In this document: one piece after another, positions 1,993 to 44,199 of the stretch
Position numbering within the stretch: position 1 is the stretch's first letter
How the letters are laid out: every line of letters starts with the position of its first letter
Origin: Owenia fusiformis
Lineage: Eukaryota; Annelida; Polychaeta; Sabellida; Oweniidae
Length of the DNA stretch: 64,000 nt
Reading direction: 5' to 3'
Assembly (NCBI GenBank): GCA_903813345.2
Contig: CAIIXF020000007.1
Span: 5,771,730 to 5,835,729 of the forward strand
Notes under the pieces: model-generated
What the model was told of the DNA's origin: nothing
The model's input: the letters and a program-made list of their open reading frames with translations, nothing else
Database searches by the model: none
Made by a program: the position numbers and the translations under genes

Positions 1993-3927
1993 CACGGTGT
2001 TATAGCATGACAGATACGCCACCTCTGAAAACGAGGTTAGTCGAATACGATCACTGATTTATCCAATAAAATGGCCACGATGAAACAGAAAGCTAAGGTA
2101 GGTGCATTATGTTCTACTACTGCGTATCAATAAAAGCATGAAAGATTTATGTAAGCGTCGCATTCGGTGATGCATTCAGTAATGTTTATTTTGAACGTAG
2201 TCTTTGCAAATCGACGCCCATGGATAACATGAAATAAGCGAAAAACTGTCGAGTTTGAAATTCAAAACTTCATAAAATTTAATAATTTGTTTCTTTTCCT
2301 CGTTAGGGCATGCTCTACATTGCGCAACAACCTTGGTGTATATAAATATAACCTACATACGATCATACAAAGCCAATTAAGCATTGTAAACCACTTAATA
2401 ATATGTTCTACTCAAGCCATAATAATGTATTTTGAATTTGCGGATACGCCAAAAATTGATAGACAGTTACGCGAACCTCGTTCATATATGTACACTCTAC
2501 TATACCTTGCATTTGGTGTTCATAAGCAACCCATTTGGCTTATTAGTAATGATATGTATTTGTTTTTATTTGTCTGTTCCTTATGAATGGTTTATCGGAT
2601 GACATTAGATTTTTATAAGGCACTTTCAAAAATATACTAAACAATACAATTAGACAAACAAAGTATCTTATGCATTTCTAGGTGTTAGGTATAGTAGTGT
2701 GATGTAACACCGAATCATTTCATATCGCTTGTGATCCAAAATTGAAATGTTTTTCAACCGGATTTGAGTTTTGTAAGCTACAGTATAATAGATGAAATTG
2801 TATTATTACCACCTTGCAGGGCCTGTTCTAGGGGTTTTAGTACTAGTTGAGAAGGCATTTAAATTGCTATATTGACGTGAGCAATATTGTGTCGGGCGTT
2901 AATGACTTTAGTCGGGCAATAATGATATTATCCGCCCGGCTATGTTTCCCGGGAAAAGTGATATCGTTCAGTGCGTAAGATTTTCTATTTCAAATTTGCT
3001 ATTTCAGCCCTGGGCATTAACGGTGGTAATAATAGTAATAACGTCATTTCTGCGGGCAAAATAGTGAAATATTGGACCTTGGGCCTGCGTCCCTTGGTTC
3101 AATATTTCACTATATTGCCCTTTGAAATGACGTTATTGTACTATTATGAAGATGGTGACATAAACAGCTGAATATGATTTGTGGTAATGGTAATATATGT
3201 GTAATGTCACTCATGACATCATCAATTAATTTGGAGTTGTTTTCTCCCGTCGCCTGTTCATTTTTATTAATTTCTCCCTTTGCCTCTTCATTACAATCAT
3301 TTTCACTTTCATTGGCTTTCGCTATTTTTTTCCTTGCCCTATCTCTTGCGAGTCCTGAAAACAACAAATATAGGCAGTTCACACATAGAGAGCTATCGAT
3401 CTAGGGACCTTGATTTGACAGGAACTTGCATGTAACCGTCCGCTAACATCTAATGTAAAACTAATACAATGCGTTGCTGTCCATAAAAAAGCATGCAATA
3501 CATATGTATCTGTCTAACGACCTTGCGATTGAAACCTTATTATCTACAATATTCACCACATTTCTGTTCTGCATTTGTCATTTTATGGCTTGTTTATACA
3601 CAGTTTACGTACAGTTAGTATTTTGAGCGGCTCTGAGGCACATATACTGAGAAAACACGAAAAAGGACTAAAAATTATGAAGTTCGAAATCTCAGCTGGG
3701 TAGGTTTACAGCTTATATTCTGCTTCTTGTAGACCACACGACAGATTTAACTCAATCTTTATAACCATTCACATATGCATCACCGAATGAAAAGGAAAGC
3801 TTACCTGTGAATCTTGCCTACAGGCGAAAAAGAGGACATGCTGTCTTTCCCGTCCGCCATTTTTTGTAATCGTTACCGCAAAATTTGGCCAATTGCCTTG
3901 TCGTATCTGTCATGCTATAACACCGTG
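1993..3927. mobile_element. TIR element A, CACGGTG ends, 5-bp TSD (Transib-like, non-autonomous)
   Basis: The left end reads CACGGTGTTATAGCATGAC and the right end is its inverse, giving terminal inverted repeats of about 26 bp. TTATC flanks both sides (1988-1992 and 3928-3932). Removing the element and one TTATC restores the minus-strand LINE frame through to its stop, which confirms both boundaries. No transposase frame is seen inside. Elements B and C have the same ends, and their interior is related but in the opposite orientation. Confidence 0.9.
2887..3150. repeat. Palindromic hairpin inserted in element A
   Basis: 3030-3075 pairs with 3095-3140: AATAGTGAAATATTGG is matched by CAATATTTCACTAT, flanked by AATAACGTCATTTC and GAAATGACGTTATT. 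The loop is GC-rich (TTGGGCCTGCGTCCCTTGG). A smaller GTCGGGC / GCCCGGC motif precedes it at 2893-2942. Confidence 0.8.
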
Positions 3928-4142
3928 TTATCAGTTTTTCGAATTTCTTAATATATTTTGCCTTTTTGAAGTCTTTAGCCAGTGAGTTAAATAGTATTGC
4001 TCCTCTAATCGCAATTGATTTTGGACCAGTTTTAGTTCTAAACCTTTTGATTGTTAAATTATATTTGTATCTAGTATCATGGGTGTGTATATCTGTTCTC
4101 TCTTGAAAAAACTGTTTAAAAACATGAAATGGAAAGTCTGCA

Positions 4143-4480
4143 GATTCTGTTCCAGTTTTCTACACAAAAGTGAGCGTTTGAAATGTATTAATGTCAAACA
4201 ATATTTAATATTTTCAACTTTTTGAAGATGGGACTTGAATGAGCAGTTCTTTCAGAATTTGTCATTATTCTTAGAAATTTCTTTTGTAAAATAAATAGTC
4301 TGTATAAGTGATTCTGTTCCAGTTTTCTGCACAAAAGTGAGCGTTTGAAATTTATTAATGTCAAACAATATTTAATGTTTTCAACTTTTTGAAGATGGGA
4401 CTTGGATGAGCAGTTCTTTCAGAATTTGTCATTATTCTTAGAAATTTCTTTTGTAAAATAAACAGTCTGTATAAGTGATT
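4143..4480. repeat. 167-bp tandem duplication inside the LINE
   Basis: The block starting GATTCTGTTCCAGTTTTCT at 4143 repeats at 4310 with few changes. It lies between the C-terminal and palm-distal parts of the reverse transcriptase and is one reason the frame is broken. Confidence 0.88.
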
Positions 4481-4649
4481 TTTGCTGCATTGCCCCATAA
4501 AATGTTTCCATAACTTATATATGAATATACTAAAGAATAATAGGTAGTCAACAAGGCATTCAATGTTAGTTTGTGTCTAGTTTTATATAGTAATCGAATT
4601 AAATTTGAAATTTTGGTACAAAGTGCATTTATATTAGCAGCCCATGTTA

Positions 4650-5345
4650 ACTTGGATCAGAAAAATTCAAGTCCTAATCGTCTTAAATGAGAATAAACCA
4701 TGCTTAACGTAAGTAAATTAAAACAGAAAATAAGCTTAAAGCAAGTAAAACTCAAGTCCTAACCGTCTCAAATAAGTATACACCATGCTTATGGCAAGTA
4801 AATTAATACAGATTAATACATTTTAAGCAAGTAAAATTCAAGTCCTTACCATCTGAAATAAGTATAAATCATGCTTAATCTGAATAAAATGTATGCTGAA
4901 TGAGACCTTAAAATAATTTTGTTGTCAAAGCTCTTAACTTGAAGACGCGAAGTAATTTTTAAGCAGAACAATTTCTTATTTTTAAAATTACTGAATGATA
5001 CAATTACAATTTCTCAATATAAGGAAATCAAAGGGAAATTTTAAAGTAATATATATCATATGTTTTAAATTACTTATAATTACTTGTAATTACTTTGAAT
5101 TACTTAAATAATCTTGAACTACTGAATAATTTTTAAGTAATTTTTTACTTAAAATGAGTAGTACAATTTCTCAATATAAGGAAATCCAAGTAAATTTTAA
5201 AGTAATATATATCACATATCTTAAATTACTTATAATTACTTATAAGTATTTTTTACTTAAAATGAGTAGTACAATTTCTCAATATAAGGAATTCCAAGTA
5301 ATATTTTTTAAGAGTGAAGTCGAGTCAATTATTACTCCTAGAAAA
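4650..5345. repeat. Two short AT-rich tandem arrays inside the LINE
   Basis: About 4665-4890 holds three or four copies of a unit of about 75 bp containing ATTCAAGTCCTAA and ACCATGCTTA. About 4985-5330 holds copies of a unit of about 100 bp containing AGTACAATTTCTCAATATAA and ATTACTTATAATTACTT. Both separate LINE segments that would otherwise be adjacent. Confidence 0.8.
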
Positions 5346-6913
5346 TTATTATTATTTACCCTTTCTATCGATTGATTTTTTAATTTTATTTCAAAGTTGT
5401 CAATTTTGTTGATTCTTTTTATGTCAAAAATCATAAGTTTTTTTCTACATTAAGTGTTAATCTGTTAGATATAATCCAATCATGAACCTTCTTCAATTCC
5501 TCATTTATATCATTTTCTAAATTATCAATGTTATCATCAGTCAATAAAATATTTGTGTCATCTGCATATAAGACAAATTTTAATTTATCTGATGTTAAAT
5601 ATATGTCATTTATGAAAATAATGAATAAGAGGGGGCCCAAAAACAGAACCTTGTGGAATTCCATATTCAATATTAGAAGCAGATGATTGATATTTCATAT
5701 TAGTTATAGTACTTGAGTCAATTTCAAAATCATGTATTGTATATTTTGTTATAATTTTCCTATTTTCAAGATAACTTTCAAACCAAGAAAGTGGGGTTCC
5801 CCTAATTCCATAAAATTCAAGTTTATTCAACAGTATATTATGATCCCCGGTATCAAAGGCTTTTGTTAAATCAATATATATTCCAATGCTTGTTTCCGAT
5901 TTGTCTAAACCTGTTCTAAAATTTAAAAGAGCCATATTGCTGTAAATAGAGTAATTCATATTTTCTAAGAATAACATTACCTTATCATGCATAAGTTTTT
6001 CTAACATTTTCGCAAAAAAACACTCAAAATAGAAATTGGTCTGTAGTTAGTGAATTTATCTTTAAGTCCCCATTTAAATACTGCGATAACTCTAGCGATT
6101 TTAAGTGCATCTGGAAATTTACCCGTAGAAATTGATAAATTGAAAATGTGTGCAAGTGGAGCTGCTAGAAATTCATGAAGTTATTTTATAACTCTAGGTT
6201 TTATATCGTCAATTGAAGCTGCAGTAATTCCTTTAGTAATTCAATTCCTGTTGTGACACCATCTATTGTAACTGGGGTAATGAATAGAGAGTTTAAATTT
6301 TGATTCATTTTTCTCATATTAATCATTGGGTCAACGTTAGTCTTGATACGATCAGCAAGTTTTTTTAACATTATTCTGCTAAAGAAGTGATTAAAATACT
6401 CTGCTATCTCTTCACCATTAGTTGTTTTCCGTTCACCAAGGTCAAATGTGGAATTTCTATTGGAATTGATTGGTTTTCTTTTCAAAATGCTATTAACAAT
6501 ATTCCAGAATTTCTTTATATTTCCTATGCTCTCTTCAAATATATTTTTATAAAACATCTTTTCTGCATTTAATTTATTTTTATATCTAGTGTAAACTGTC
6601 TTATTCTGCGAAGTTGGATTTTTCTTATATTTGGCGTAAAGTTTGTTTTTATATTTGGCTGAAATTATTATCCCTAAAGTTGTCCATGGTTTATTGTTAT
6701 CATTATACGTTTTAATTATTTTGTTTTTAATAGGAAGACATCTGTTATAATGTTCTGGATAAAATATCTAAAATGAATTGTAAGCAGTGTTAATACAAGG
6801 AGATTCATCATAATTATCCCAGTTGATCAAAGATATCTCATTTTGACGTTTTTTTTGAAAAATTGGATATTTCCCTTTTCCAAACCTAATGAATTTGGAC
6901 ATTTCTTCGTTGT

Positions 6914-7446
6914 CACTGGTGATCCACTCGATTACGCTGGTTACCGAAACGGTTCGTTTTGGTAACAAAATGTCGGAACGTCGAAGGTACGATTTTTATT
7001 TTTTCCTTATATCACGCTATGTAGGCAGAATCCCCACGACGTTTTTTCTCACAAACGTGTATCAGTATCATATGTTTTAGAAAATGTTCATGTTTGCGAA
7101 AAGAAATTGTTTAGAAGACAACAGAATCGTCGATTTAATTCCTCACTTAAGTTACATAAACGGTTTGGGTTAAAAGTGCAGATCTTAACTGTTTTTCGAA
7201 AAACCGTTTATGTAACTTAAGTGAAGGATTAAATCGACGATTCTGTTGTCTTCTGAACTATTTGTTCGAACATATGTACATTTTCTTAAACATATGATAC
7301 TGATACACGTTTGTGTTAAAAAATGTTGTGGGAATTCTGCCTACAACGTGTGAAATAAGAAAAAGAGAAAAATCGTACCTTCGACGTTCTGACATTTTGT
7401 TACCAAAACGAACCGTCAACCAGCGTAATCGAGTGGATCACCAGTG
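6914..7446. mobile_element. Foldback element E, CACTGGTG ends, 5-bp TSD
   Basis: Almost the whole element is two inverted arms of about 265 bp meeting near 7190. The left arm starts CACTGGTGATCCACTCGA and the right arm ends TCGAGTGGATCACCAGTG. The perfect 5-bp direct repeat GTTGT flanks it (6909-6913 and 7447-7451). There is no protein frame of note. A one-arm relative lies at 10494-10765, and a short fragment at about 37325-37435. Confidence 0.85.
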
Positions 7447-7451
7447 GTTGT

Positions 7452-8158
7452 ACATGTTGTATTAATTCTTCAATGATTTCCAGATTTGAGTAGATTATTA
7501 AGATAATAAAATTACAACTTCACAGGAAACACACTACCATACTTTTAAAAATCTCTACATGAACACAATTTAATGCACATCATAATTTTAGTACTTGGAA
7601 TTTTTTACCTTCTTCTAAGGCCACTGTATCGTGGCCTTCCAGTACAGATATATTCCTGCATGAACAACTGGTCATGTCGTAATCATAAAATTTGAAATCA
7701 TATGTCCGCCATTTTTCCACATCACAATTTGAATTGCGAGTTTTGGTCTTATTACCTCACCAAAAATTCCAAAACACACAAATAGTGATCAGTGTATTAG
7801 TTCACATCTTCTGGATCGCTAACTTAGAATTTACAGCCAATTACTAATGTCAGACGTAACGACATTTCGTCCAGTTTTCGAACATCGCCATTTTTCTTGG
7901 AGCCATTTTGTTTTAATTTTAGACGAAATCCTGATGAAATCATGTCATATCTCATCAAGGAGCCGAGCTGGGTCCGGTTTGATTAATGATTTATTTATCT
8001 GGCGATTTTTAAAATATTCAATAAATATATGACACCCCTGCAGCTTTTTTCAAATAGAGTTCACAGTATTCCAGATGAATCCCCTCTAGCCAAGTATTGG
8101 CTAGAGACTCGAGTAAGGAATTTTACTTGAAAGTTTTTGACTCCTCAACTAAACTTAC
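7452..8158. other. Remainder of copy A intron 6
   Basis: 7555-7610 (AATTTAATGCACATCATAATTTTAGTACTTGG) matches intron 6 of SELENBP1 copy B at 28735-28785, so the duplication reaches at least this far left. The 7612-8130 segment lacks that match and looks inserted. None of exons 7-11 was found here or further left. Confidence 0.6.
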
Positions 8159-8340
8159 TTCTGTTCTGAAGAATCTGAATATAGTTGAGCTCAGGGCGCA
8201 TCCTACAAACCCCTCAGTTGCTTTTGGGTCGTGCAGGAAGCGGATCTCCAGTGGTGTCATACCATCAGGTCCCAGATCAATCCTCTGGGAGAGAGTTCTG
8301 TTAGTCCAGTCCCACACATTCAGCGAACGGCCATAGAGAC
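8159..8340 (-). CDS. SELENBP1 copy A exon 6
   Basis: Encodes [12 protein letters not shown] through [18 protein letters not shown]. The acceptor TGTAG|GT and donor GAA|GTAAGT are intact. It ends in phase 0, which would require an exon 7 starting E-G-T-W as in copy B; none is visible to the left. Confidence 0.95.
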
Positions 8341-11300
8341 CTACAAGCACATTATAAGTTCACATTCAAATATATTCAGAGAAAGTACAAAGTAACGCAC
8401 TGCGAGTTACAAAATGTTACTAAAATGAATTGTACCACTCATATCTCCTGTGTCATATTTTATCATCTCTTTTAATGCAACTTGTACGACACTAATCTCA
8501 ATCATTTCAGATCGCATAGGATTTACATCTCATTGCCAGTTAAGATGTTTGCCTATAAGTCAATCTGAGCAATATCTCCTGTGTCATCTTTTCTCGCCCT
8601 TTTCTGCTTTAACTACTTGTACTTCACACTAATATCAATCATTTCAGATGTCATCTAAGAATTGTTAAAGCAGAGTATTGAGAAAGGTATTAATAATTAT
8701 TTTACTCACAAAATATCCTCATTGGTACTCAACAAAAATACTGGAAGTGCAAGATTTCAGGGATAAATACCTTTAGCAACATCTGCAGGGTCGAAGCCTG
8801 GTAAAAAGGCCTTGGGCACACTAAACTCTGTGCTAATCATCACATTGTGCTTAGGTTGATACCAGAAGTCATAACCGAATGAGGCGGCGGTCTTCTCCCA
8901 GTTGCCAACAACATGGAAGTCCTCTCCATCAATCAGGATGAATCCTCCTGTAAATATATGTCATTTAAAATCCTCTCAATCAATTGGGATGAATCATGTT
9001 GTACATGTAAATACATGCCATTTAAAAACCCTCTATATCAATCAGGATGAATCCTCTGGTAAATACAAGTCATTTAAAAATCATCTCAATCAATCAGGAT
9101 AAATTCTCCTATAAATACAGGTCATTTTAAAATCATCTTCAGCAATCAAGATGAATCCTCCTTTAAATACAGGTCATTTTAAAATCATCTTTATCTATCA
9201 GGATGAATCCATCTGTAAATACATGCTATAATTTAAAAATTCTCTCAATTAATTCTAAGGATGAATCATGTTGTACATAGAGATTATCCTATATGAGGTT
9301 CAGGATATTGGGATTATCCCGAGGCCAATATAATATATTTGCCCGAGGGCCGCAGGTCCCGAGGGAAAATATATTATATTGGCCAAGGGATAATCCCAAT
9401 ATCCTGAATCGACTATAGGATAATATGTTTATCCCATACCAATCTTGGTCATCTGGTTCACATTGTTCAATCGTGGAAATATTTTAGAATATTCATGTCC
9501 AGTTTTGTTTTCTTGGCCGTGGGCGGATTTTCCTGTTCTCTCAAATATTCCCACATTCATTTTCTCGAATTTTTTGATTGATTAAGTGGATGCTCCTTCC
9601 CTTTTTTAAACCATCAAACAGATCCCGATAGTCTGTGTTTTCTCCATTGTCGTTTACAGTCATTACGCGAACGTTACAAATTATGAACAGTCAAATATGC
9701 GAGCGGCGATTATGACGTAACGGGCAGATATACTATATCTGCCCGCTCGGAGCGGGACGTAAAGCTATATCTGCCCGCTGATGAAAATATAAGATTTTAC
9801 AAACCGGCTTTATGTACCTGTAACACGTCCAAGTATAGGATAAATGTAAATACATGTCATTTTAAAATCCTCCGAAATCAATCAGGATAAATCCTCTTGT
9901 AAACACATGTCATTTTTAAATCCTCTCAATCAATCAAAACGAATCCTCCTGTAAATACATGTCATTTTGAAATCCTCTATATCAACAACAATGAATCACA
10001 AACCCTTTAAATACACGTCCTTTTAGAATCCTAATTCGAATCCTCCTGTAAACACATGCCATTTAAACTTAATGTTCTCCTCGTCAACAAGGATGAATCC
10101 TCTTGTAAATACATGTACGTTTAATTTTTTAACTAAAAGTTACATATACAAGATACAAATCACAAAAATTACACAAATGCAATATCATGTAACACTTGTA
10201 ACCCAGAACAACTAACACTGGGTGGTGTATTCCCTTTCAGACTGTGAGTCCCTTGATTCATCATGAACAGACTCATTGTTAAATTAGGTGTCCCAAAAAG
10301 TGAGTACTTTCTAAAGCTTCGTTCACACCAACGGCGCTTTGACAGTGTAGGTATTATGGAAATCTCGAAACTGCTGAATAACTTAGAATAATATCAGCGG
10401 AGATCTATTGGATTGTACAAGGCGGTAATTATTCAAAATCAGAGAATTAAAAAATACAGACTTGGGCAAGGTTAGTATTTCATTATCACTGGTGATCCGC
10501 TCGATAACGCTGGTTACCGAAACGATGTAACAAAATGTCGGGACGTCGAAGGTACGATTTTTCTCGTTTCCTTATATCACACGTTGTAGGCAGAATCCCC
10601 ACGATATTTTTCTCACAAATGTATATCAGTATCATATGTTTTAGAAAATGTACATGTTTGCGAAAAATAGTTCAGAAGACAACAGAATCGTCGATTTAAT
10701 ACCTCACTTAAGTTACATAAACGGAATGGGTTAAACGTGCAGGTCTCAACTGTTTTTCTTGAAAATTTATTTTAAACAGTGTTTCTTGTCCCTTAGGCAC
10801 TAACATATCCATCAACTGCTCTTTAGGTTATCAATAAAAACTACATTTCTACAAAAACGGTGGCCATTTTGAAATGAGCATCCAGATAAAACAATCCTTC
10901 TCGAGCAGGGGTCCTATGCCCAGAGGGCATCAGAAATGAATCTGTCAACCGGTACCCGAGCTTCCGGCTGAGACGGACGAACGAAACGACAGAATAGACG
11001 GACAGACGGCTTCTCCATATCCCTCACAAACTATGTTCAATGGGATAATAATTGCAGAGCAACAATAATGTGCATGCATTTACATAAAGCATCTTGTAGT
11101 ATACAGAGTTTTATTGTGTACCCTTCATGTAAGAATGTTAAATATTACCTCTGGCATTTCCGTTTGGATCCCCAAGACAACTGATCATGATCTTGCCATT
11201 AGCGAGGCAGTGAGAGGTGTGGGGGGTACTGAGTCCTGTTACGCGATGGACCTCTCTTGGTTCAACGATCTGAAAGTTCAAATGAAAGCAGCTACTAAAT

Positions 11301-14300
11301 AGAATGTTTATGTTGAATTTAGCTAAGACACACAGTATACAATTGTTGACCTCTCCAGAGGTCAACCGGCAAAATTGTATACCGAGACTGTAAACCGAGA
11401 AACTACTGTTGACAGAGACCGAAGGTCGAGGTCAACAGTGTTTCAAGGTTTACAGTCGAGGTATATGATTTTGACGGGTTGACCGAATGGAGAGGTCTAC
11501 AATTGTTTTGTTAGTCAGAAGAAACTAATAATATTATACGACAGTCATCAATCATGGCTTCATTTCACAATCTTTTCTACGAACCACGCCAGCAATAATT
11601 TTTAAGAAAATCTGAAGACAGTGGAAGCTAAACTCTCTGTTTTCGGCACATAACTGCGTACTCACTTGTAAATTAATGTTAATTTTGCGTTTCTATTTGT
11701 ATTGTTGCTATACTCGTCGTGTAGAAAAGTCAAAATATCACTTTCATCAACGTGTACAAAATGTCCGACTACCATGTTTTTTTCTGTAAACATTGTGACG
11801 TCATATTTCCCATAATTCACAAGTGTAGTACAGTAACATATGCGGTCAATAATATGATATCCCATGATGCACAAGTGAGGTACAGGCAAAAATGTTGACC
11901 GCTAATTGACCAATCAGATGCGAGTATTTACACTGAGGTACTAACAATGATAAATATCGCACCTCTATTGAAAAAATTAATATGGCCGCCAAGTATTTTT
12001 GCTAAGTACCCAATTATACAGGGTGTTAAAAAACGCAACCCAAAGAAATCACTATATCTTGGAAAATACTGATGCAATTATGTTCATTTTTTCAGGAAAG
12101 AAAGAAGAGACTGTGTATGTATAGCTCCTGTAGTTGGTTAGTTATAAAACGTGATGCCTTAGACACCCGCTCAAAAGACATTAGAATTGGAAAGATACAA
12201 AAAACGCAGTCAGGGGTAACTGCCACAGCAATAAAACCGAATAACTTTCTAATCATAGTGTTTTAGCACTTCAAATTTGGCACAAATCATCAACATTCAA
12301 AGTATGGTAAATCTGTAGAGTGAAATCAAAATCACTCCAGGGACTTTACAGATATGGTCGAAATGCGTTCAAGACGCAGTCAAACGCCCTGGTTCAGGCA
12401 TACTTAAGAAGGCATTTTGACCATGACTCTAAAGTCCCTAAGGTGATTTTGATGAAACTCCACCAATTCACCACACATTGAATGAGGATAATTTGTGCCA
12501 AATCTGAAGTGCCAAACCACTATGGTTAGAAAGTTATTCAGTTTTATTGCTGTGGCAGTCACCTTTGACTGCGTTTTTTTGTATCTTCCTAATACTAATG
12601 TATTTTGATGTGTGTGCAGGTGCAGGTGTCCAAGGCTTCATGTTTTACAAGTAAATAACTACAGGACATCTACATGCACAGTCTCTTCTTTCTTTCCTGA
12701 AAAAATGAGTGCAATTGGATAAGTATCTTCCAAGATATAGCGGTTTCTTTGGGTTGCGTTTTTTTTGAACACCCTGTATTTAGCATTAGTCTGAATTTTG
12801 ATGATTTGACAGACGCACAGGACGACAACTATATCACTTGAAAAAGTGTAATAAAAAGAAATTCTCTAGTGAACTTACTTTTTATTAAACATCCCATCTT
12901 AAAGGCAGAATCAGATCTATAGGGGGTGACAAAATTACAACCAACGTGCATAATTGACCTAGCAATCTATTCCTTACAATATCAAATACAATATCTCCCA
13001 AAAGATTCACAATATGTTTTGAATTGGTGAAGTTATTAATGATTCAAAGTGCAAAAATGGGTGAAAAATGTTTAAATTCTCCAAAATAATAAGAATGGTA
13101 ACCATTCTTATAGAAAAATAATACATTATTGTAAAAATCTTTCGTTTTCCTTGAATAAAGTATGCACTTTTGTGATTTTTAGAAAATAGACATGGCAAGG
13201 AATGACCTGAGCCGAAAATATTCTAAAATTGAAACAATTTTTTGTTTAGCCTGCTCGCTATCTCTGATTCTCTCTTTAAGATAACATAAAGTGATATCCG
13301 AGTAATGTGTTTTCAGGTGTTTCAAATAAATACCATAGTAACCTGCTGACGATTTGATGAAATAAAATTTTTAAATTCCGACCCAAAGCTTGAAAATTAC
13401 TTCACAGTAAACTACATAAAAAGTACATAAATCTATGGCGCCGGTGCCTGGCTTAAATATTTAAAGTATCGAATATAAAAGGCAGAATCAGATCTATAGG
13501 GAGTGACAAAATTGCAAGCAACATGTTTAGTTTGAAATTTCAAAATCAGTCGAAACATGTGTATATGCATTTGATTTTTTGGCCCTTACAACCGTAATCA
13601 AAAATAAGACCGCCCCTCCCCTCTCTCTCTTACGTGATAAATCTTTGGTGAACGAGGTTCAGAACTTGTATCGATGACATAAACTCGATCACTCTTAAGA
13701 CTTGGCATGATCAGTTTTGATCTACTTTTTGATGGATCATTGAAGCAACTTGAGCAGGCATTCCAACCAGTGTGATGTAATTCATCTCCTACATAGGGCA
13801 TAGGAAGTCTATGGATCACCTAGAAAACAATAAAATACTGCATGAAAGATAATATCAACGGTGATTCTACGGCCAAAACAAACTGGAGACGCTGTACGGA
13901 GACCGCAAGGCGAGCCTACTATGGCTGTCGCAGCATTCACTGACTTATTGGGAACAACGGTCGACGTACAAACGTAATAGAGGCGTTAGTCATGGCTTCA
14001 AATTAAAAACATACAAAAAGTGATCATAATAATTAACCAGATTGATTACCCAATAGTGTTATACAGTATACAGAAACTTGGAGATTATTGAATTAAAAGA
14101 AATATCATTTTCCACGGAGGCATGCTCTGACTCAAAAATGTCAATTAGAATAGGTAGATATGACATATTAATGATAATTTATCACTCGTGAAATCGATAA
14201 AATAATATATAAAAAGATGTTTTATTTTCTGATATTTGTGTAAACGATGGCGTAATATTACAGTACTTCCATTTACTAGTGTAATTATTATATAATATTA

Positions 14301-14703
14301 TGAAGGAAAAAATATAATCAGCATAATATACTCTATTATATAGTAATTAATATAATATAATTAGAAATAAGTGAGATGCAAAAATATTATTTGTACATAT
14401 AAACATTTACCAAATCTAGGGCCCGCGGTTATTATTTCTTAAACAATCTAATCCTCATTCATTATCCTAAACAGAAAATATTACATTGATCAAGCAGTTT
14501 TAAACTAGGCTATTCACAAATGGAATTTACCTTGCTATAAGAAGGTGAGTTTGGATCAACATCAACAGTGGCCAGGTAGTCGGGCTTTTTATCATGAGGA
14601 GTGTTGCGGTAGATACATGGCAGGTATACAATCTCTTCTCTCTTACCATTGAGGTAGGCATCCATTGGTGTCTTGTATCCAGGTCCATGACCACTGCAAC
14701 AAT
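8159..14703 (-). CDS. SELENBP1-like copy A, exons 2-6 only (partial tandem duplicate)
   Basis: Five exons are 8159-8340, 8771-8947, 11149-11269, 13634-13819 and 14531-14703 (exons 6 to 2). All have AG/GT borders and the same phases and lengths as copy B. They encode the N-terminal half of a selenium-binding protein 1 / methanethiol oxidase, including GHGPGYKTP, the CSSC motif, HTSHCLANG and [15 protein letters not shown]. No stop or frameshift is present. Exon 1 and exons 7-11 are not recognisable in 1-20.7 kb, although intron 1 sequence is shared with copy B to about 18 kb. It may be a pseudogene, or its 3' exons may lie beyond position 1 in a very large intron. Exon 5 differs from copy B at 11 of 58 residues, the other exons at only 1-3 each. 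Confidence 0.88.
8440..8660. repeat. Imperfect tandem duplication in copy A intron 5
   Basis: ATCTCCTGTGTCAT...TCAATCATTTCAGAT occurs at about 8448-8510 and again at about 8573-8650. Copy B carries one related segment at about 29150-29200. Confidence 0.65.
8771..8947 (-). CDS. SELENBP1 copy A exon 5 (divergent)
   Basis: Encodes [14 protein letters not shown] through GFDPADVAK plus one base. The acceptor TTTACAG|GAGG is the first of a series of near-identical acceptor copies repeated upstream in the intron. The family-typical Trp in STEW is Phe here (STEF). Confidence 0.95.
8925..9280. repeat. Minisatellite built from the exon 5 splice acceptor (copy A, part 1)
   Basis: On the minus strand each unit of about 50 bp reads TTTACAG-GAGGATTCATCC-TGATTGAT followed by AGAGGATTTTAAATGACA. 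The first unit is the true acceptor plus the first bases of exon 5; about six degenerate copies follow in the intron. Confidence 0.88.
9282..9430. repeat. Palindromic hairpin element
   Basis: The arms ATTATCCTATA, CAGGATATTGGGATTATCC and GGCCAATATAATATATTT are matched in reverse order on the other side. The GC-rich centre is CCCGAGGGCCGCAGGTCCCG. It interrupts the acceptor minisatellite. Confidence 0.88.
9700..9790. repeat. Small GC-looped hairpin GGGCAGATATA
   Basis: GGGCAGATATACTATATCTGCCCGC is followed by CTCGGAGCGGGACGTAAAGC and another ATATCTGCCCGC. It is of the same style as the palindromes at 3030, 9282 and 33440. Confidence 0.75.
9840..10130. repeat. Splice-acceptor minisatellite (copy A, part 2)
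   Basis: Units of the same type as at 8925-9280 resume after the inserted hairpins. Five or six degenerate copies carry AATCCTCCTGTAAA or close variants on the plus strand. Confidence 0.82.
10494..10765. mobile_element. Single arm of the CACTGGTG foldback family
   Basis: Starts CACTGGTGATCCGCTCGA and runs through AAGACAACAGAATCGTCGAT and TTACATAAACGG, in the same order as the left arm of 6914-7446. The second arm is absent, so this copy is truncated. Confidence 0.82.
10855..11055. mobile_element. 3' end fragment of the GGAC-tract element family
   Basis: Contains GGTGGCCATTTTGAAATGAG, a degraded ACGGACGAACGA tract, then CTCCATATCCCTCACAAACT and GTTCAATGGGATAAT. The order is the same as in the fuller copies ending at 32244, 39010 and 54208. 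Confidence 0.72.
11149..11269 (-). CDS. SELENBP1 copy A exon 4
   Basis: Encodes [15 protein letters not shown] through LGDPNGNAR plus one base. It differs from copy B only at Arg/Ser after IVEP. Confidence 0.95.
11335..11510. repeat. Palindromic hairpin GTTGACC/GGTTGACC
   Basis: ACAATTGTTGACCTCTCC, GGTCAACC, ATTGTATACC and CTGTAAACC on the left pair with GGTTTACAG, GGTATATGAT, GGGTTGACC and GGAGAGGTCTACAATTG on the right. The loop contains GAGACCGAAGGTCGAGG. Confidence 0.85.
12019..12776. mobile_element. MITE with CAGGGTG ends and TA duplication
   Basis: The terminal inverted repeats exceed 100 bp (CAGGGTGTT...ACGCAACCCAAAGAAA, then TTTTTTCAGGAAAGAAAGAA). The inverted homology continues towards the centre near 12395, so the element is nearly one long palindrome. 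TA flanks both ends (12017-12018, 12777-12778). This fits a Tc1/mariner-type non-autonomous element. It sits in intron 3 of copy A. Confidence 0.88.
12900..13530. repeat. Dispersed direct repeat in copy A intron 3
   Basis: AAAGGCAGAATCAGATCTAT followed by AGGGGGTGACAAAATTAC occurs at about 12901 and again at about 13479. Nothing coding lies between the copies. Confidence 0.7.
13634..13819 (-). CDS. SELENBP1 copy A exon 3
   Basis: 62 codons, [16 protein letters not shown] through [10 protein letters not shown], with the CSSC motif in [11 protein letters not shown]. The donor CAC|GTAAGA runs into a CT-rich tract. Confidence 0.96.
13865..13980. mobile_element. Fragment related to the insert in element B
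   Basis: GACGCTGTACGGAGACCGCAAGGCGAGCCTAC and CGGTCGACGTAC resemble the right end of the 16005-16498 element (ACGGAGGCCGCAAGGCGAGC, GCGGTCGACGCACG). Confidence 0.6.
13981..14530. other. Copy A intron 2, AT-rich
   Basis: ATTGATTACCCAATA near 14045 matches copy B intron 2 at about 36058, so the intron is shared by descent. The rest is AT-rich sequence with no feature seen. Confidence 0.6.
14531..14703 (-). CDS. SELENBP1 copy A exon 2
   Basis: Begins with two bases of a split codon, then [16 protein letters not shown] through [11 protein letters not shown]. The acceptor TTTTTTCAG|AT is intact, so the exon could be spliced if an exon 1 existed. Confidence 0.95.
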
Positions 14704-14903
14704 CTGAAAAAATACATGGCACATACTGTATTGGACAATATATGATTTTAATTTAGTTGGGGCTATTTTGATCACAATCAATTTTGTTTTAAAGCCAAGC
14801 CTCTCAATAGGTGATGTAGGTTCGAACCGATCGAACCTATTTAGCGAATCTAAAGAATCACCTTAGCAAACCTAAATTCTGGAAATATTTAGAGTTGCCT
14901 TAT

Positions 14904-16682
14904 CACGGTGTTATAGCATGACGGTTACGTCAAGGCGATTTGCAAAATTTTGCGGTAACGATAACAAAAAATGGCGGATGGGAAAGACAACATGTCCTCT
15001 TTCTCGCCTGTAGGCAAGATGCACAGATAAGAATTCCTTTTCAACTAGTTCCATTCGGTGACGTATATATGGATGGTTATAAAGACTGGGTCAAATCTGC
15101 CAGGTGGTTACTACAAGCAGAATAAAAGCTGTAAACTTACCGACTAAGATATCCTCGCTCATAATTTTTAGTCCATTCTCGTGTTTTCTCAGTATATGTG
15201 CCTCAGAGGCACTCAAACTATCAACTTAAGTAAACTGTGTATTAACAAGCCATAAAATGACAAATCTAGATCAGGCACGTGGTGTATATTGTAGATAATA
15301 AGGTTTCAAACGCAATGTCGTTAGGCGACTATGTATGAATTCTATGGACGGTAACGTTTTGTATTAGTTGTAGTTGTAGATATTTAGCGGACGGTTACGT
15401 GCATGTACACCTTTCAAGTCAAGGTTGCTAGTTCTGATAGCCCCTTTCTATGTCATTGTTATAATGGGTAAGCAATGGAATATTGAATCGCTTATATTTG
15501 TTTTCAGGACTCGCAAGAGACGCTCTTGTTTGAGCCTCTATAGGGCAAAGAAAAATTGTGTCTTGCTTTATTCATGAAACCAATGAAAGTCAAAAAGATA
15601 GCAATGAAGAGGCAAAAGAAGAATTAGCATCAAGTACCGATGAATATGACAAAATTAATAACAATGAATCGGGGATACATATTTGAACGAGGTTCGCGTA
15701 ACCGTCCATCAATTTTTTGCGTAATCCCAAATTCAAAATACATTATTATGGCTTCAGTAGAACATATTAGGTGGTTTCCAATGCTCAAATGGCTTTTTAT
15801 GATCGTATGTAGGTTACATCTACATACCCCGAGGTCGTTAGGCAATGTAGTATAATGTAGACCTTGCCCTAACGACAAAAGTAAACAAATTACTAAATTT
15901 TGTGTAGTTTTGAATTTCAAACCCAACAGTTTTTCGCTTATTTCATGTTATCCCCGGGCATCAATTTGCAATTGCAAAGACTACGTTCAAAATATACATT
16001 ACTAACACCCCAGTCACATTTCCCACGGCCGCAGTGCGGTCTATCATTTCTGCGGCCAGTAGCTTTTCTACGCTCGCCGAAGAATTTCTGCGCTCTCATA
16101 CCCTTGCAGTCACATTTCCCACGGCAGCCGCACGGTGAATTTTAAATTTCTGTTGATAAATAATACTTTTTTTTCATTTTATTTACATCAGGACAATTTA
16201 TAAATGTTATTCATAGTGCTAGGATGTAATATCAAATGAAAAGTGATCGTGAAACATTGACAAATAATGATTCAATCTTGTTGAGCCAGTTGATTTCTAC
16301 GGGGACCTCAGAAATGAACAAATATTATAACTCCGAGTAATAATTTCTACGGCGACCCTGCGGCCTGTAAAAAACTGGATACGCCATACGGAGGCCGCAA
16401 GGCGAGCGTAGTTTTCCTACGACCGCCGCAGAAATACACTGATTTAATTGATCTGCGGTCGACGCACGCCCTCCGTACGACAATGAGACTGGGGTTTACA
16501 TGCATCACCGAATGCGATGCTTACATAAATCGTTCATCCTTCCATTGATACACAGTAGTAGAAAATAATGCACCAACCTTAGTTTTCTGTTCCATCGCGG
16601 CCATTTTATTGGAAAAATCATTGAACGTAGCCGTCCAACCTCGTTTTCAGAGGTGGCGTAACCGTCATGCTATAGCAGGGTG
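14904..16682. mobile_element. TIR element B, CACGGTG end, 5-bp TSD
   Basis: The left end is CACGGTGTTATAGCATGACGG. The right end is CCGTCATGCTATAGCAGGGTG, whose last seven bases have mutated away from CACCGTG. CTTAT flanks both sides (14899-14903, 16683-16687). The interior is nearly the same as element C but longer, with another element inserted at about 16005-16498. No transposase frame is seen. Confidence 0.9.
16005..16498. mobile_element. ACCCCAGTC-ended element nested in element B
   Basis: The left end ACCCCAGTCACATTTCCCAC and the right end GACTGGGGT are inverted. Element C lacks this block between ATACATTACT and ATCACCGAATGCG, which marks it as an insertion. It is GC-rich, with repeated CGGCCGC / GCGGCC motifs. 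Confidence 0.78.
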
Positions 16683-16683
16683 C

Positions 16684-16820
16684 TTATGCCTTGGTCACAT
16701 TTGCTCCGATTTTCACTACGGTTCATGGCCGATTGAGTATTATCTTCAAAACTGAATACAATTTTAGACAAAATACTCAATCGGCCGGGCGATGAATCGG
16801 GGCAAATGTAACCCAAGGAT
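16684..16820. mobile_element. Hairpin MITE CCTTGGTCACATTTGC, copy 1
   Basis: ATGCCTTGGTCACATTTGCT and GATTGAGTATT on the left pair with AATACTCAATC and GGCAAATGTAACCCAAGG on the right. It directly abuts the right target duplication of element B. Confidence 0.82.
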
Positions 16821-16832
16821 AAGTTGACCACC

Positions 16833-17239
16833 TAATGCCTTGGTCACATATGTTCCAGTTTTCACGACGGCGCCCGGCCAATTGTAATTGAGAATTTTGT
16901 TCAAAATTGAATACAATTTCATATACGTAAAGAAAACAAAGTGTATAAAATATGTTGATTCTCTAATAAATAGATGAATAAAGCAGTTTCATGTGAGATT
17001 AACTTTGCTTGTGCAAATACTTGTAATCAAATTAAAACTGAATTATGTAGTGTGCCTTGATTTTATTAGTCAATAAAACATTTTATATGTGTCTGGTCAT
17101 GCCTGGGTCACATTTGCTCCGATCCATCGCCCGGCCGGCCGATTGAGTGTTTTGTTCAATATTGTATTCAGTTTTGAACAAAATAACCAATCGCCCGGGC
17201 GCCGTAGTGAAAATCGGAGCAAATGTGACCAAGGCATTA
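16833..17239. mobile_element. Hairpin MITE CCTTGGTCACATTTGC, copies 2 and 3
   Basis: The outer ends are TAATGCCTTGGTCACAT and ATGTGACCAAGGCATTA. A second full hairpin (17096-17239) starts with CATGCCTGGGTCACATTTGC. The 16920-17095 segment between them is unrelated and looks inserted. GC-rich GCCCGGCC motifs recur in all copies. Confidence 0.78.
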
Positions 17240-17514
17240 TGCAAAACAGGCATCATCAGCTGTCGAGTAAAACTACTTTACCAAAAGCAAATTCCATAAT
17301 GAGGCGGTTACCTGAACCATGGACTTTCAATTAGTGATTTTGTATCTTTTAAGTGACCATCCTCCTAAGCAGGTATCCAGAATCCGTACCTCCTTCTTCC
17401 GGGGGTAAAAAGAAAGAATATATTCTGGATTTTGAAGCCCTGTGATCGGAGGATGTTAAGCGACATGGTAGAGAATATTTTGCAATGTGTGAAGAGGTTA
17501 AGCCAAAGATTCAA

Positions 17515-17605: not shown

Positions 17606-17739
17606 GTCCAGGGCTTAAATCCTTAGATAATATAATTAGGCTACAAGTATTGTAGAATTTCATGCAAAAGTCCAAATATGTATGTAAATTAAATGCATCA
17701 GGAAATTAAACTATATCGATATTGAAAGCCCATGATCTA

Positions 17740-18874: not shown

Positions 18875-19055
18875 ATTCGCGAATGCAACTAACCCCTGTC
18901 GGCTCCCAGATTAACCTACTATTTTATGGGTAACTCATTTAAATATGAATAGTACCTACCACTATTCTAATCATATTTAAATGAGTTGGTCATAAAATAG
19001 TAAGTTAACCCGGTAGCCGACTGGCGTTAGTTGCATTCGCGAATGCAAGGTTAGT
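18875..19055. repeat. Foldback element with GCATTCGCGAATGC ends
   Basis: ATTCGCGAATGCAACTAAC and TCATTTAAATATGA-type arms pair with TCATATTTAAATGAGTT and GCGTTAGTTGCATTCGCGAA. TAACCTACTATTTTATG pairs with CATAAAATAGTAAGTTA. The terminal GCATTCGCGAATGC is itself palindromic. Confidence 0.85.
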
Positions 19056-19059
19056 TTCG

Positions 19060-20580: not shown

Positions 20581-20586
20581 TTTATT
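20581..20586 (-). promoter_or_regulatory. Candidate polyadenylation signal of SELENBP1 copy B
   Basis: AATAAA on the minus strand, about 163 bases after the stop codon at 20749. It is the nearest canonical hexamer noticed downstream. Confidence 0.4.
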
Positions 20587-20748
20587 AATGTTTTTTTGAA
20601 AGAAGATCATTTCTTATTGTTTTAATTGACTTTCACCCTGTATATTATGTATATCAGTTTCATTGAACAAGCGTGTCCAGTCCCCAGTGGTCACTATATA
20701 GTTGTCAGCAGTATAACAAATGTTTAAATGTCACTTTGAATTGCGTAG

Positions 20749-20917
20749 TTACTCATCCAGCCATATATCTGAACTGCAGTCTCCTCCTGGGTAGCGGATC
20801 TCATGAGCAAGCACAGCGCCCTCTGGCTCAAGTCCAAAGTCCACGAAGAAGTTACGGTTCAACTTCAAGCCACCTGTGTCTGTGTTTACATCAATTTGCA
20901 TCATCACAGAACCTTTC
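20749..20917 (-). CDS. SELENBP1: SELENBP1 copy B exon 11 with stop
   Basis: Encodes [19 protein letters not shown] through [13 protein letters not shown] and TAA. The family usually ends at IWI or IWL, so two residues are added. Confidence 0.95.
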
Positions 20918-23900: not shown

Positions 23901-26900
23901 ATTTTCAAGCAAAGTTACATTGTACTTGAACACATGTTTCATCACTTAAAATATATAAGGAACTCCTCGTGGATTAGGATTATGATAATCCTATATAAGG
24001 GGATCCAATGGGGCTATGCTTTTAGTACAGCACACTCATATAAGATGTCATTAGTGTGCCATCAAGTTAGTTCAAAATGTTTTCATAAATGAATGGTTGG
24101 ACTTGTTTGATCCCCTGCTGTTTGATCCCCTGTTTAATCAATGGAGCATAACCGCAGCATTTCCCAAAAAATTCTGAATACCTGTCAAGTTGACTGTTTA
24201 ATGTTTGAGTGCAGTTAAACCTGTGTTCGTGTGTAAGTTGCTAAGAAATTCTAAATACCTCTCTTTATGATAATTTCTATGATGCCTTATTATAGCATTT
24301 ACTTTGAACAGGTTTTCTGTATCTTGTTTATCAGTAATGATTCACGAGGTACAGTGCTATTAAAATCATAAATACAGTACAAGAATTTAGTACATCATAC
24401 CTTTGCCAATAATTTTAGTAAGACAAATATTTTGATCCAGCTTCTGAAAAAACATTGAACATGTTTCTATATGATGATGTGTTATAACACACTTCCTTAT
24501 TTGAGTTTATCTCCAGATTGATTATTCAAATAATGAAATGAAGGATGATATGCTAAGAATAATTTTTGCATATTCATCAATTCAAGAAATGTTATCCCAA
24601 GAAAATGTTATGAGTAACATACACTCTTACCTTAATGTTAACATTAGGGAGATTAAGCTTGCATATAAAATCGAAACGCCAACCTATGACCAATCGCCCA
24701 TACAAATGCATCGCTAAATATTTTCCATTCACATTTAGGTTGTGAAAAACATTGCAAGCTTAAAGTCCCTATTGAGAGTCTCTGAAAACCACAATCAATA
24801 CCATTGAGTGTGTGGTGTATACTACCTTTATCATTATTTCTAAGATTTACAATAACATATTTTTAGCAAAATGTCCGATTTTCTTCCATATTAATGTGAA
24901 CAAATATAAACAAACATAGAATGATTCTATTGGTTGAGTCAACAATTTCAGTTATTAGGGAGGTTAAGATCGCACTATTTTGATGAACGTACACATGGAA
25001 TGTGTAAACTTATGGTCCCCTATTCACGGTGTTATAGCATGACGGTTACGTCAAGGCGATTTGCAAAATTTTGCGGTAACGATAACAAAAAATGGCGGAT
25101 GGGAAAGGCAGCATCTCCTCTTTCTCGCCTGTAGGCAATATTCACAGATAAGATTTCCTTTTAAACTAGTTCCATTCGGTGACGTATATATGGATGGTTA
25201 TAAAGACTGGGTCAAATCTGCCAGGTGGTCTACAAGAAACAGAATATAATCTGTAAACCTACCGACTGAGATATCAAAGTTTATAAGTTTTGGTCCATTC
25301 TCGTGTTGTCTCAGTACATGAGCCACTCAAAATATTAACTGTTAGTATAAGTAAACTGTGTATAACTACTGCAAATTCAAAATACATTATAATGGCTTGA
25401 GTAGAACATATTAGGTGGTTTCCAATGCTCAATTGGCTTTGTATGATCGTATGTAGGTTACATCTATATACCACAAGGTTTTTAGGCAATGTAGACCATG
25501 CCCTAACAACAAAAACAAAAATAAACAAATTACTAAATTTTTATGTAGTTTTGAATTTCAAACTCGACAGTTTTTCTCTTATTTCATGTTATCCCCGGGC
25601 ATCATTTTGCAAAGGCTACGTTCAAAATATACATTACTGAAAGTATCACCGAATGCGATTCTTACATAAATCGTTCATCCTTTCGATACACAGAAGTAGA
25701 AAATAATGCGCCAACCTTAGTTTTCTCTTCCATCGCGGCCATTTTATTGGATAAATCAGTGAACGTAGCTGTCCAACCTCGTTTTCAGAGGTGGCGTAAC
25801 CGTCATGCTATAACACCGTGCTATTGACTATTTTCACATCACTGGCCTCTTTTTGCCTGATTGATATAATGCCAATTGATGTAATGGTCCCCAGTTATTC
25901 CAGTTGAGAGATGGACAACATTACTGGGGGTCATAACAGTACTCGTTCATGTTCAAGTTCTCACACAAGTGTTTTACACAGTCTGTAGCCAGCTTTTACC
26001 AAGGGGTAGGAGCAGTTTTACCAAGGGCAAAGCTTTTGCCTAGGGATGAACTTTTTGACAGTTTTGGCTAAAAAATCATGCGAAGTGCTCAGATTGGTGA
26101 GAAACTGCATCCTTTTGAAAGAATCTCTTGGGGGAGCAGCAGCTCCCTTTATCTCTCCCCCTCTACCTGCCTATGAGCCTGTGTACTTAACCTCTCTAAT
26201 GTTCATGATCAATACTAAATGTAAAATTTTCACATTTTTCATATTTCTACTATTCATATTGACCAATCCCCATTCATGTCATTTTAACAGGTCCTTAATC
26301 CCTTGTTTTCTAGTCGTATGTGCTTTTATTATTCAGTTTCACAATCTATTGTTTTGCCATGCCAGTTCTACATGTTTGCATGCTGAGTTTGTTTTATGTA
26401 ATGTTTTTTGTTCCTTATATGGTTTACACATTCACTCAGTTGAGTTGGGGTGTTGTTTGTGACTGTACATACACAAAGCATTTCAAATATATATTTTAGA
26501 AAACATTTTATATTTGATTCCCACCCAAGGGTCTTCCACTCACCCATTAACATAAACAAAACATGAACTCTAATAAAAATGCCAACAAGACTGCAAGGGA
26601 AACTTAATCTATGAATTGGACGACCCTCTCCCACGGTGTATAATCCAAACGCTCCTACATACACGACGGAGCGTTTCATTACTGAAATTAAACAAAGAAA
26701 CGCTCCGGAGTAGGAAAACTGTCTGGCGGGAATGATGAGCCGTCTGACAATTTCCCCAATAATGGGACTAAGAGGTATGAGTTACATATTTCGAGTATAC
26801 CATTCGATGGGTGTGATATTCATGTTGTACGTGGCTGGCTGTTGACGTTTGAAGCAATTGGGAAGAGCTGTACGAAGCAGTATAGTTATCAAAATTCAAA

Positions 26901-29900
26901 AACGTATTTGTCATTCTACCGGTCAAAACCCCTTTTGTCGATACATGTGATTAGTTGAGCCAAGATAAGAGCACCAACGTATATTTTAGTCAAATTCCAA
27001 TGCTTCAACGCACCATACATTATCGTAATAGTGATTTGATGACCGAAAATCCAGTCTTAAAAATGATGACATTCTCATATTCAAGAAACGCTCCGATCTG
27101 GTTAACACAGTGAATTGAAAACGCTCCGGTAGTCTAGATCAGTTAAGGAAATATATAGCTTGCCTTTCCTTTTCAGGAAGAGAAAGAAAAGATCTATTAT
27201 ACCCCTTGGCATCAATAGAAGAAAGATTAATTCACATGTAACTTTTCGTTTTTTTCTATAGTTTTATGATTTAGCACATATGTAGGCATGACATCATCTA
27301 ATGTAGGCTTAAATCAGCTAGTTGCACGTTTAGCACCACCAGGTTCAGATGTTTCAATTTGCCTAACAAGTACAACACGTTTTTGAGAGATAGATTCGAT
27401 TCGGAACTCTTCTCTAATAATCTGAAAATGATATCAAAACAAAATGGTAAGAGCGTTTCTAAAATTGTGGTCTAAATCGACGGAGCGTTTCGAGGAAAAC
27501 AAGCGATTTCTCGAGAACAAGTAATGGATTTGGACTGGGATTTTAGGAAATGAGAATATACGAGTTTGTGATCTACTACTTAAACAGAAAGATTAACGTT
27601 TTCATAGAAATACTAGTTTAATTCGTAATTTGTGGTCAAATCGTTATCTTCAGATTCGTTCGATCTACACTACGGAGCTTTGATCAAGCAAATAACAGTT
27701 TACCACCAGAAGTTGAATAAATAAGATCTTTGCTCACGGTATTGTTCATCGAATGGTACATAATATTTCACCATGACATATGATATGTAAGAGAAACGAG
27801 AGAAACAATACTTAGGGTCATAGTAGAATCTTCATTAGCCGCCATTTTATTTCGCTCCGGAGCGTTTCCGCGTAAATGTAACGCTCCGTCGTGCATGTAG
27901 GAGCGTTTGGGTTATACACCGTGTCTCCCCTAGGCACATTTTCTGTCAACATCCTGCAATTTTTCACCACTTTAGTACTTTTCAAGTGATGTTCGGATGA
28001 TGCTTTCATTTAATTGCTTGCACTGATGGTTTCTCTTGAAAATTCATGCACATAAGGTGATCTAGTATTTCAACACAGGACCCTGAATGTGCTATTTGAG
28101 CTTGAAGTAGAAGTATTCATAGTATTACTGTTTGTATTATTAAGCTCTATGATTTTTCAATAGGCTAACTCAGTCAGTGAATGCAGGATTAAAACACAAC
28201 ACACATGAGTAATTCACCCACCTATGCATGTTATTATTGAAAAACATTGCCATCTTTTACATCACTCCTAAATTATTTTTGTAAACATGCATTTTAAGAG
28301 GTTCATTTTTTCAAAAAAAACTCAAAAACAAACTTCATGGAGTTCCTTACATATTTTACTTGATGAAACATGTGTTCAAGTACAATGTAACTTTGCATGA
28401 AAAATTGTAAAAAAATGAGGGACGATGGTGAAAATGACGAATGTATTTTGAAAAAGCTTGTTGATGGGTGGATTATACATGGATTATAAGATAATCCAAT
28501 TGATCTGGAAACTATTCTTTGAACTTTTCTTGAAGATTATAGATTCGCCTTTCCCAAGCATTTACTTTTTACAGCCAGAAACTACTCACAAAAAAATTAT
28601 CAACTGTCAAAATTATCAAAAGTCTGTTGCGATACTTTCCCTGCTCCTTTGATCATGATACATGTATCTTGATCTTTCATTCAGAAAACAAAGTTAAGAC
28701 TTTATAGGAATAATGCTGGCATGCTTCTGGAAATCTCTATATGAAACAATTTAATGCACATCATAATTTTAGTACTTGGGGTTTGGACTCCTGAACTAAA
28801 CTTACTTCAGTTCTGAAGAATCTGAATATAGTTGAGCTCAGGGCGCATCCTACAAACCCCTCAGTTGCTTTTGGGTCGTGCATGAAGCGGATCTCTAGTG
28901 GTATCATACCATCAGGTCCCAAATCAATCCTCTGGGAGAGAGTTCTGTTGGTCCAGTCCCATACATTCAGTGAGCGACCATAGCGACCTACATGAACATT
29001 ACAAGTTCACATACACATGTAAGGCACACATGAGAAAGCACAAGATTGCACAGTGAGTAATAAAATCTTACCATAATCAATTGGAAAAAGTATTTGAAAG
29101 AGTTATTTCATAATGTTTCATTGCCACGGTAGAATTCTGTCTAAGTCAATCTGAACAAAATCTCTTGTGTCATCTTTTCTCTCATCTTTTTTTGCTTTAA
29201 TAACTTGTACCAATGAGGAATGGAAGTCAGAATGTAACATCAATATTCTCTAACATAGCTAGTGTTAGTCCTGGAGTCGTATTTCTCACTTCAAAATTTG
29301 AAACGCAAGTTTTGGTCTTATTACTAAAACAAAAAAATCAAAAAACACAAGAAATGATCAAGATAAGGTAAATGCCAGACAATAATGACGCCTGAGCTTT
29401 GTTAGAGAATATTGTTCATTCTCCCCGCAGCCGTAAAAATATAGACATGATCGGCAATATCGCATTACTTGGAGATTAAAGAATATCGAGTTGGAACTCT
29501 GGCTTCCAATCCGCCTTGCAACTTGTAGAATATAATAGCTTCAAACATTTCAGATCTAATTTAAAATTCATTAAAAAGAATAAATGAAATTATTTGACAA
29601 ACAAGAATTCGTTATTGCTATATTATAAAAATACTTCAAATGTGAGTACTGTATACAAATGCAAGTGTGATGGCGTGCGTACCTTTAGCACAATCTGCAG
29701 GGTCAAAGCCTTGAAGTAAAGCCCTTGGCACACCCCATTCAGTGCTAATCATCACATTGTGCTTAGGTTGATACCAGAAGTCGTAGCCCATTGAGGCGGC
29801 AGTCTCCTCCCAGTTGCCAACAACATTGAAGTTCTCTCCATCAATCAGGACAAATCCTCCTGTAAACAAATGTTATTTTAAAATCCTCTCTATCAATCAG

Positions 29901-44195: not shown

Positions 44196-44199
44196 GACA

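Follow-up and report, generated by a model that had tools for sequence, protein, structure and literature searches.

Which enzyme moved the short inverted-repeat elements that lie close together on contig CAIIXF020000007.1? A 64,000-nucleotide stretch of this contig (hereafter the window; all positions count from its first letter) carries elements with CAC...GTG ends and 5-bp target duplications, an end signature that a first-pass annotation had called Transib/RAG-like. The recombinase of antibody genes is considered to derive from Transib and RAG-like transposons. Families whose ends resemble recombination signal sequences could reveal how a heptamer that stays fixed for cleavage and a binding box that is free to change evolve separately. 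Several such families occur in this one locus, one nested in another, and an empty site is preserved. The elements are real and non-random, and we lean towards reading them as non-autonomous cut-and-paste DNA transposons of Transib type, a membership that is unproven.

CAC-ended elements with exact 5-bp duplications

Elements A to E were named by coordinate order (Table 1). All five lie where the first-pass annotation had placed them, and each is flanked by a direct repeat of exactly 5 bp, a sixth matching base being found in none of the five. With the newly found element F included, the 5-bp duplication is exact in 6/6 two-ended elements; the chance of one such flank match is ~0.0016 per element at the window base composition. 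The duplication of B2, a second copy of B, could not be scored because its right half is missing. CAC is present at all 12 element ends, and seven of these read CACGGTG. Elements A, C, D, and E start with CACGGTG and B with CACTGGTG, which agrees with the earlier split into four starts of one kind and one of another if its letters were not assigned in coordinate order. The right end is the matching inverse of the left in A, B, D, and E, as had been claimed for four of five; the exception is C, with CACCCTG for CACGGTG. The ends of F read CACTCTA and CACACTA, i.e., CACWCTA.

Table 1. Positions of the elements, their repeated boxes, and coding-like features in the window
Feature	Position	Strand	Description
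Element A, family 1, inverted relative to C and D	1993..3927	-	1935 bp; TTATC duplication; 29-bp terminal inverted repeats
Element F, new, nested in A	2493..2701		209 bp; ATGTA duplication; ends CACTCTACTATACC / CACACTACTATACC
First-exon-like stretch near the family-left end of A	3805..3860	-	ATG at +68, open to CACAG/GTAAGC; putative exon
Element B, family 3	6914..7446		533-bp near-palindrome, 85% self-inverted; GTTGT duplication; ends CACTGGTG
B2, truncated second family-3 copy	10487..10765	+	Left end CACTGGTG kept, right half missing
Element C, family 1	14904..16682	+	1779 bp; CTTAT duplication; right end decayed to CACCCTG
Six GACGGTTACG boxes in C	14920..16666		≤2 mismatches; outermost +17 from each end; 0.12 expected
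Element D, family 1	25025..25820	+	796 bp; CTATT duplication
Element E, family 2	26632..27923	+	1292 bp; TCTCC duplication; 49-bp inverted repeats (93.9%)
Eleven AAACGCTCCG boxes in E	26647..27908		≤2 mismatches; outermost +16 from each end; 0.54 expected from rest of window
ATG in AATAAAATGGCGGC	27843..27845	-	+79 from the right end of E

A blind scan of the window accepted any start trinucleotide, an inverted repeat of at least 12/14, and a length of up to 2.5 kb, and excluded repeats that continued outward. It returned 27 pairs, 13 with 4-bp, 6 with 5-bp, 4 with 6-bp, and 4 with 8-bp duplications. Five of the six 5-bp pairs start with CAC and correspond to A, B, D, E, and the previously unreported F; C is absent because its end pair matches at just 11/14. 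The sixth (5284-5666, 12/14) starts ATA and looks like a chance match. An inverted satellite at 49-51 kb accounts for every 6- and 8-bp pair, and AAATGGC-type satellite at 31 and 53-54 kb for 8 of the 13 pairs at 4 bp. A second scan, restricted to CAC starts but extended to 6 kb with no outward filter, recovered the same five elements at 5 bp. At other duplication lengths it gave seven pairs of 2 bp, four of 4 bp, and one of 6 bp, several lying within B or in the large inverted repeats. No pair exceeding A in length combined CAC at both ends with a 5-bp duplication; within the 6-kb limit, the window thus shows no intact longer copy.

Loose inverted repeats often have short flank matches, and the inverted repeats and flanking matches could in principle both have arisen by chance. 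Fifteen shuffles of 25-bp blocks gave means of 4.6 pairs at 4 bp, 1.4 at 5 bp, and 0.33 at 6 bp; they contained no CAC-started 5-bp pair, compared with five in the window. The three copies of family 1 have three different duplications, and C retains an empty site of F, as described next. Chance, to which we assign a negligible probability, is thus already refuted by the scan, the family copies, and the empty site.

An empty site for the nested element

Element F interrupts A at a site that is uninterrupted in C. The left flank matches at 37/40 bases, including a single ATGTA; to the right, 10 of the first 14 bases match (random P 0.00025), and A and C diverge beyond that point. This comparison shows directly that a member of a CAC-ended family inserted precisely and duplicated 5 bp. 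No empty sites for A, B, D, or E were found when their joined flanks were compared with the window. The joined flanks of C had one window match, extending just 9 bases across the junction; the matching sequence is a repeat lying close by, in which 4 bases agree beyond an altered duplication (ATAAT for CTTAT). A repeat at 16686-17244, which has inverted copies, adjoins the right flank of C, placing C at its edge.

Four sequence families

The elements form four sequence families: A, C, and D (family 1), E (family 2), B with its truncated copy B2 (family 3), and F. The first-pass division of its five elements into three families was right. Inverted A aligns with C in stretches of 734, 331, and 183 bp, and D is without much of the A and C interior. 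An insertion of ~0.5 kb at about 16003-16500, bounded by the inverted ends ACCCCAGTC/GACTGGGGT, is present in C and missing from A and D. CAC ends, inverted repeats, 5-bp duplications, family copies with and without interior, and a nested insertion make up a non-autonomous cut-and-paste anatomy.

A relation of B to family 1 gained no support, the fraction of random segments scoring as high being 0.28-0.35 in three comparisons; for B2 and the left end of C it was 0.009-0.019. Outside the elements, two arrays of 16-bp repeats in inverted orientation (36731-36822 and 37536-37606) enclose a segment at 37339-37471 that resembles the centre of B (71%).

Families 1 and 2 share an end layout

The first-pass annotation had called the families unrelated, which does not seem to hold for all of them. 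Families 1 and 2 both start CACGGTGTWWWA, and each end of both carries a family-specific box that starts 8-9 bp after the heptamer. The box is GACGGTTACG at +17 in family 1 (GACAGATACG in A) and AAACGCTCCT at +16 in E. Boxes recur within the elements (counts include the end boxes and allow up to 2 mismatches): besides those in Table 1, there are five GACGGTTACG boxes in A and three in D, with 0.06-0.13 expected for family-1 elements. When exact 9-mers were counted, E had 8, and none of 100 dinucleotide shuffles gave more than 3. The count of 4 in C was reached in 1/100 shuffles, and the top 9-mers of A and D were not above their shuffles.

The two families also have AATAAAATGGC in common, with its ATG exactly +79 from the right-hand end in A (2071, + strand), C (16604), D (25742), and E. 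With the first 12 bp removed, the right ends of D and E were matched in score by 0.0000 and 0.0003 of 3000 random window segments, those of C and E by 0.013 and 0.004, and those of A and E by 0.059 and 0.049, the D-E and A-E fractions coming from a set of 14 end pairs. An 11-base same-register run like that in D and E occurred in 1/4000 and 0/4000 random segments. AAAATGGCGG is frequent in the window, mostly within satellites, and the random-segment null includes these occurrences. For left ends, the fractions were 0.014-0.015 (A and E) and 0.28-0.31 (C and E). Families 1 and 2 thus share an end layout beyond the heptamer and are therefore probably sister lineages, for which the sequence support is moderate.

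Their different boxes suggest two divergent transposases, not one shared enzyme. The proposal that one transposase mobilized several unrelated families is accordingly not demonstrated: two families look related and have different boxes, and the other two share with them only CAC and 5 bp. Nothing here demonstrates, or requires, a single transposase for all families.

Evidence for and against a Transib-type transposase

An enzyme of Transib/RAG type is suggested by the CAC ends together with the stagger of 5 bp. A DDE transposase related to Transib/RAG1, supplied from elsewhere, would cut beside the terminal CAC, excise the element by nick and hairpin as its relatives in that group do, and insert it through target cuts staggered by 5 bp, leaving the 5-bp duplication. 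In families with CACGGTG ends, the enzyme would contact the heptamer for catalysis and bind mainly at the internally repeated, family-specific box at +16/+17. Families 1 and 2 would descend from autonomous parents that shared one end layout. F and the palindromic family 3 are provisionally placed in the same type, by CAC and 5 bp only.

Published features of these transposons agree with part of this picture. Transib duplications are listed as 5 bp, those of CACTA as 2-4 bp, and those of classical hAT elements as 8 bp (table in PMC9033116). Most Transib families are described as having symmetric inverted repeats that are heptamer-like but not nonamer-like, and RAG1 contacts the first CAC (PMC8289069). 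According to PMC9723617, vertebrate RAG discriminates least at heptamer position 4 and prefers a purine at 5 and a pyrimidine at 6; G at position 7 appears in the top table entries, CACGGTG is among the well-used heptamers, and CACGGTGTT, the start of family 1, falls in the top RAG quartile with a TT spacer. The pattern CACNRYR, as measured for RAG, was found at 7/12 ends, all of them CACGGTG. The interpretation in the first-pass annotation is supported in part: CAC with a 5-bp duplication is the Transib/RAG-like end signature, and two families have a heptamer well used by RAG.

Several observations weigh against Transib. Both ends of B (CACTGGT) and both ends of F fall outside CACNRYR, as does the decayed end of C. 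GC bias of duplications is reported for Transib, ProtoRAG, and RAG (PMC8289069), and the Hztransib duplication is GCTCG (PMC1852546). The duplications here contain 8/25 GC bases in A to E and 9/30 with F, in a window of GC 0.34, and thus have no GC bias; for 8/25, a small sample, P is 0.004 if the true GC were 0.60 and 0.054 if it were 0.50, and the bias is a tendency, not a strict definition. Families 1 and 2 carry multiple hAT-like subterminal boxes; several such boxes are described as a hAT feature, and hAT enzymes use subterminal repeats (PMC4763223). One mollusc survey counts a single Transib element (PMC10294476), and molluscs may not be the group of the host. Pfam searches of all six frames of A (within which F lies), C, and E, and searches of PDB sequences with seven frames of A and E, found no trace of a transposase, a weak point given that Pfam was not checked for a Transib model. 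Finally, the 5-bp duplication is equally a property of hAT5 elements (PMC12730594).

The elements could accordingly be non-autonomous hAT5 elements, members of a hAT group with 5-bp instead of 8-bp duplications whose transposase would bind the subterminal boxes. The 11 boxes of E and the 6 of C are similar to the subterminal repeats of hAT elements (PMC4763223), and hAT is among the richest superfamilies surveyed in molluscs (PMC10294476), which applies only if the host is a mollusc. None of the frames of A, C, or E had a hAT domain match, and non-autonomous elements need not retain one. At hAT ends, A is favoured at position 2 and G at position 5, as found in families 1 to 3 and not in F, but these ends usually start CAG or TAG, not CAC. 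We regard hAT5 as unlikely.

F, with its starts CACTCTA and CACACTA, and E, with its many subterminal boxes, could also represent an undescribed 5-bp-duplicating branch of the CACTA/Mirage/Chapaev/Transib group, which is described as having mostly CA..TG ends and 2-5 bp duplications (PMC12730594). However, 5 bp is the value tabulated for Transib and 2-4 bp that for CACTA (PMC9033116), and the elements have no transposase by which to place them. This assignment seems to us quite unlikely.

Weak matches from the domain and PDB searches were set aside: a sub-threshold Pfam match to CATSPERB in C (E 0.05), PDB matches to two TraB-family sequences (E 0.21), rejected as chance, and a PDB match to the RNase P p21 subunit (E 0.099), also rejected as chance, in a stretch that contains stops. 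Patterns of the three inverted-repeat types had 0 matches in viral_contigs. A degenerate family-1 pattern matched 3 bacterial metagenome-assembled genome (MAG) contigs in genome_contigs, where we estimate that several matches would arise by chance in 257 billion bases.

An autonomous parent, if there is one in the genome, would reveal what reads CACGGTG and the +16/+17 box, be it a Transib, a RAG1-like, or a hAT5 enzyme; without one, these are ordinary short DNA-transposon remnants.

Possible coding relics

In C and D, ATAAGA stands at the donor position of the first-exon-like stretch of A (Table 1). Oppositely oriented at the right end, the peptides MAAMEEKTK (D) and MAANEDSTM (E) begin at +79. 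After a pyrimidine-rich acceptor, C reads RTRKRRS and E reads RKRKKRS, a suggestive similarity reached by 0/140 acceptor-following stretches elsewhere, with frames picked after looking. The first-exon peptides of A and E did not match beyond chance (P 0.25), and E is without an ATG at the corresponding place. These stretches, their frames likewise chosen after looking, hint that the parents had introns and perhaps a pair of convergent genes.

Such an arrangement could indicate derivation from two-gene RAG-like transposons (RAG1L + RAG2L), with convergent genes of which one starts near each end. Start-codon-like stretches lie near both family-1 ends, the right-hand one being common with E at +79, and protostome RAGL elements also have CAC starts and 5-bp duplications, with non-autonomous copies known (PMC7204232). 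Nevertheless, the protostome RAGL end consensus given there, CACTWMCAAACKTYKBB, was found at 0/12 ends. CACGGTG ends have G at position 4, the decayed end of C has C at 4, B differs at position 5, and F at position 5 of its left end and positions 4 and 5 of its right end. The putative exons are short and in part lack support, as in the first-exon comparison, and those frames of A, C, and E that were searched gave no match to RAG1L or RAG2L. We consider this derivation very unlikely.

CACGGTG is identical to the consensus CACAGTG except at the fourth base. A more specific proposal, that families 1 and 2 arose by deletion from an undescribed lineage of two-gene RAG-like transposons with an almost perfect RSS-type (recombination signal sequence) heptamer and a swappable second box at a fixed distance, is more doubtful still. 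If true, cleavage specificity would have remained constant as binding specificity diverged between sister families in one genome.

Genomic surroundings

Five pieces of the selenium-binding protein SBP56 (Pfam PF05694) lie on the minus strand at 8126-14752 and 28764-36516 and apparently represent two tandem genes. B and C are just outside the pieces of the first gene, and D and E are between the two genes. A broken reverse transcriptase is present on the minus strand at 5434-6046 (Pfam RVT_1, two overlapping pieces, E ~4e-7 each). Two large inverted repeats occupy 47656-51830, built on a 172-bp satellite, and 54307-60062, with arms mostly 93-98% alike. A 39-bp tandem array at 44194-45742 is open for 398 codons on the + strand and 385 on the - strand; a 30-bp array at 42473-43411 is open for 326 codons on the + strand, with pieces of 163 and 166 on the - strand. 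An open frame of 267 aa at 63198-63998 (minus strand) had no Pfam match at E 0.01 and presumably resembles an asparagine-synthetase-domain protein (ASNSD1).

Comparison with known transposons

No published description of such elements was found in the titles and abstract openings of the papers listed for CACGGTG or Transib transposons, which is weak evidence. CACTA/EnSpm elements have repeated subterminal motifs and resemble those of the window in this respect and in their CAC..GTG ends; they differ in their 2-4 bp duplications, compared with 5 bp in all six elements here. The likeness to hAT5 consists of the 5-bp duplication and hAT-type subterminal repeats, and the difference is the CAC start in place of CAG or TAG. 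With protostome RAGL and ProtoRAG elements, those described here have in common CAC, 5 bp, a second conserved block behind the heptamer, and possibly two convergent genes; they differ from protostome RAGL in end consensus and in having no RAG1L or RAG2L match.

Relative to Transib, the favoured assignment, the window elements are without transposase, their duplications are not GC-rich, they have many internal boxes, and two of the four families are off the heptamer pattern. Their second box begins 8-9 bp behind the heptamer, compared with spacers of 20-22 bp in the symmetric Transib ends of PMC8355894. They resemble Transib in the 5-bp duplication, the heptamer-like CAC start, and symmetric inverted repeats without a clear nonamer. 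Hztransib is 3518 bp long, and known Transib elements also include short non-autonomous copies.

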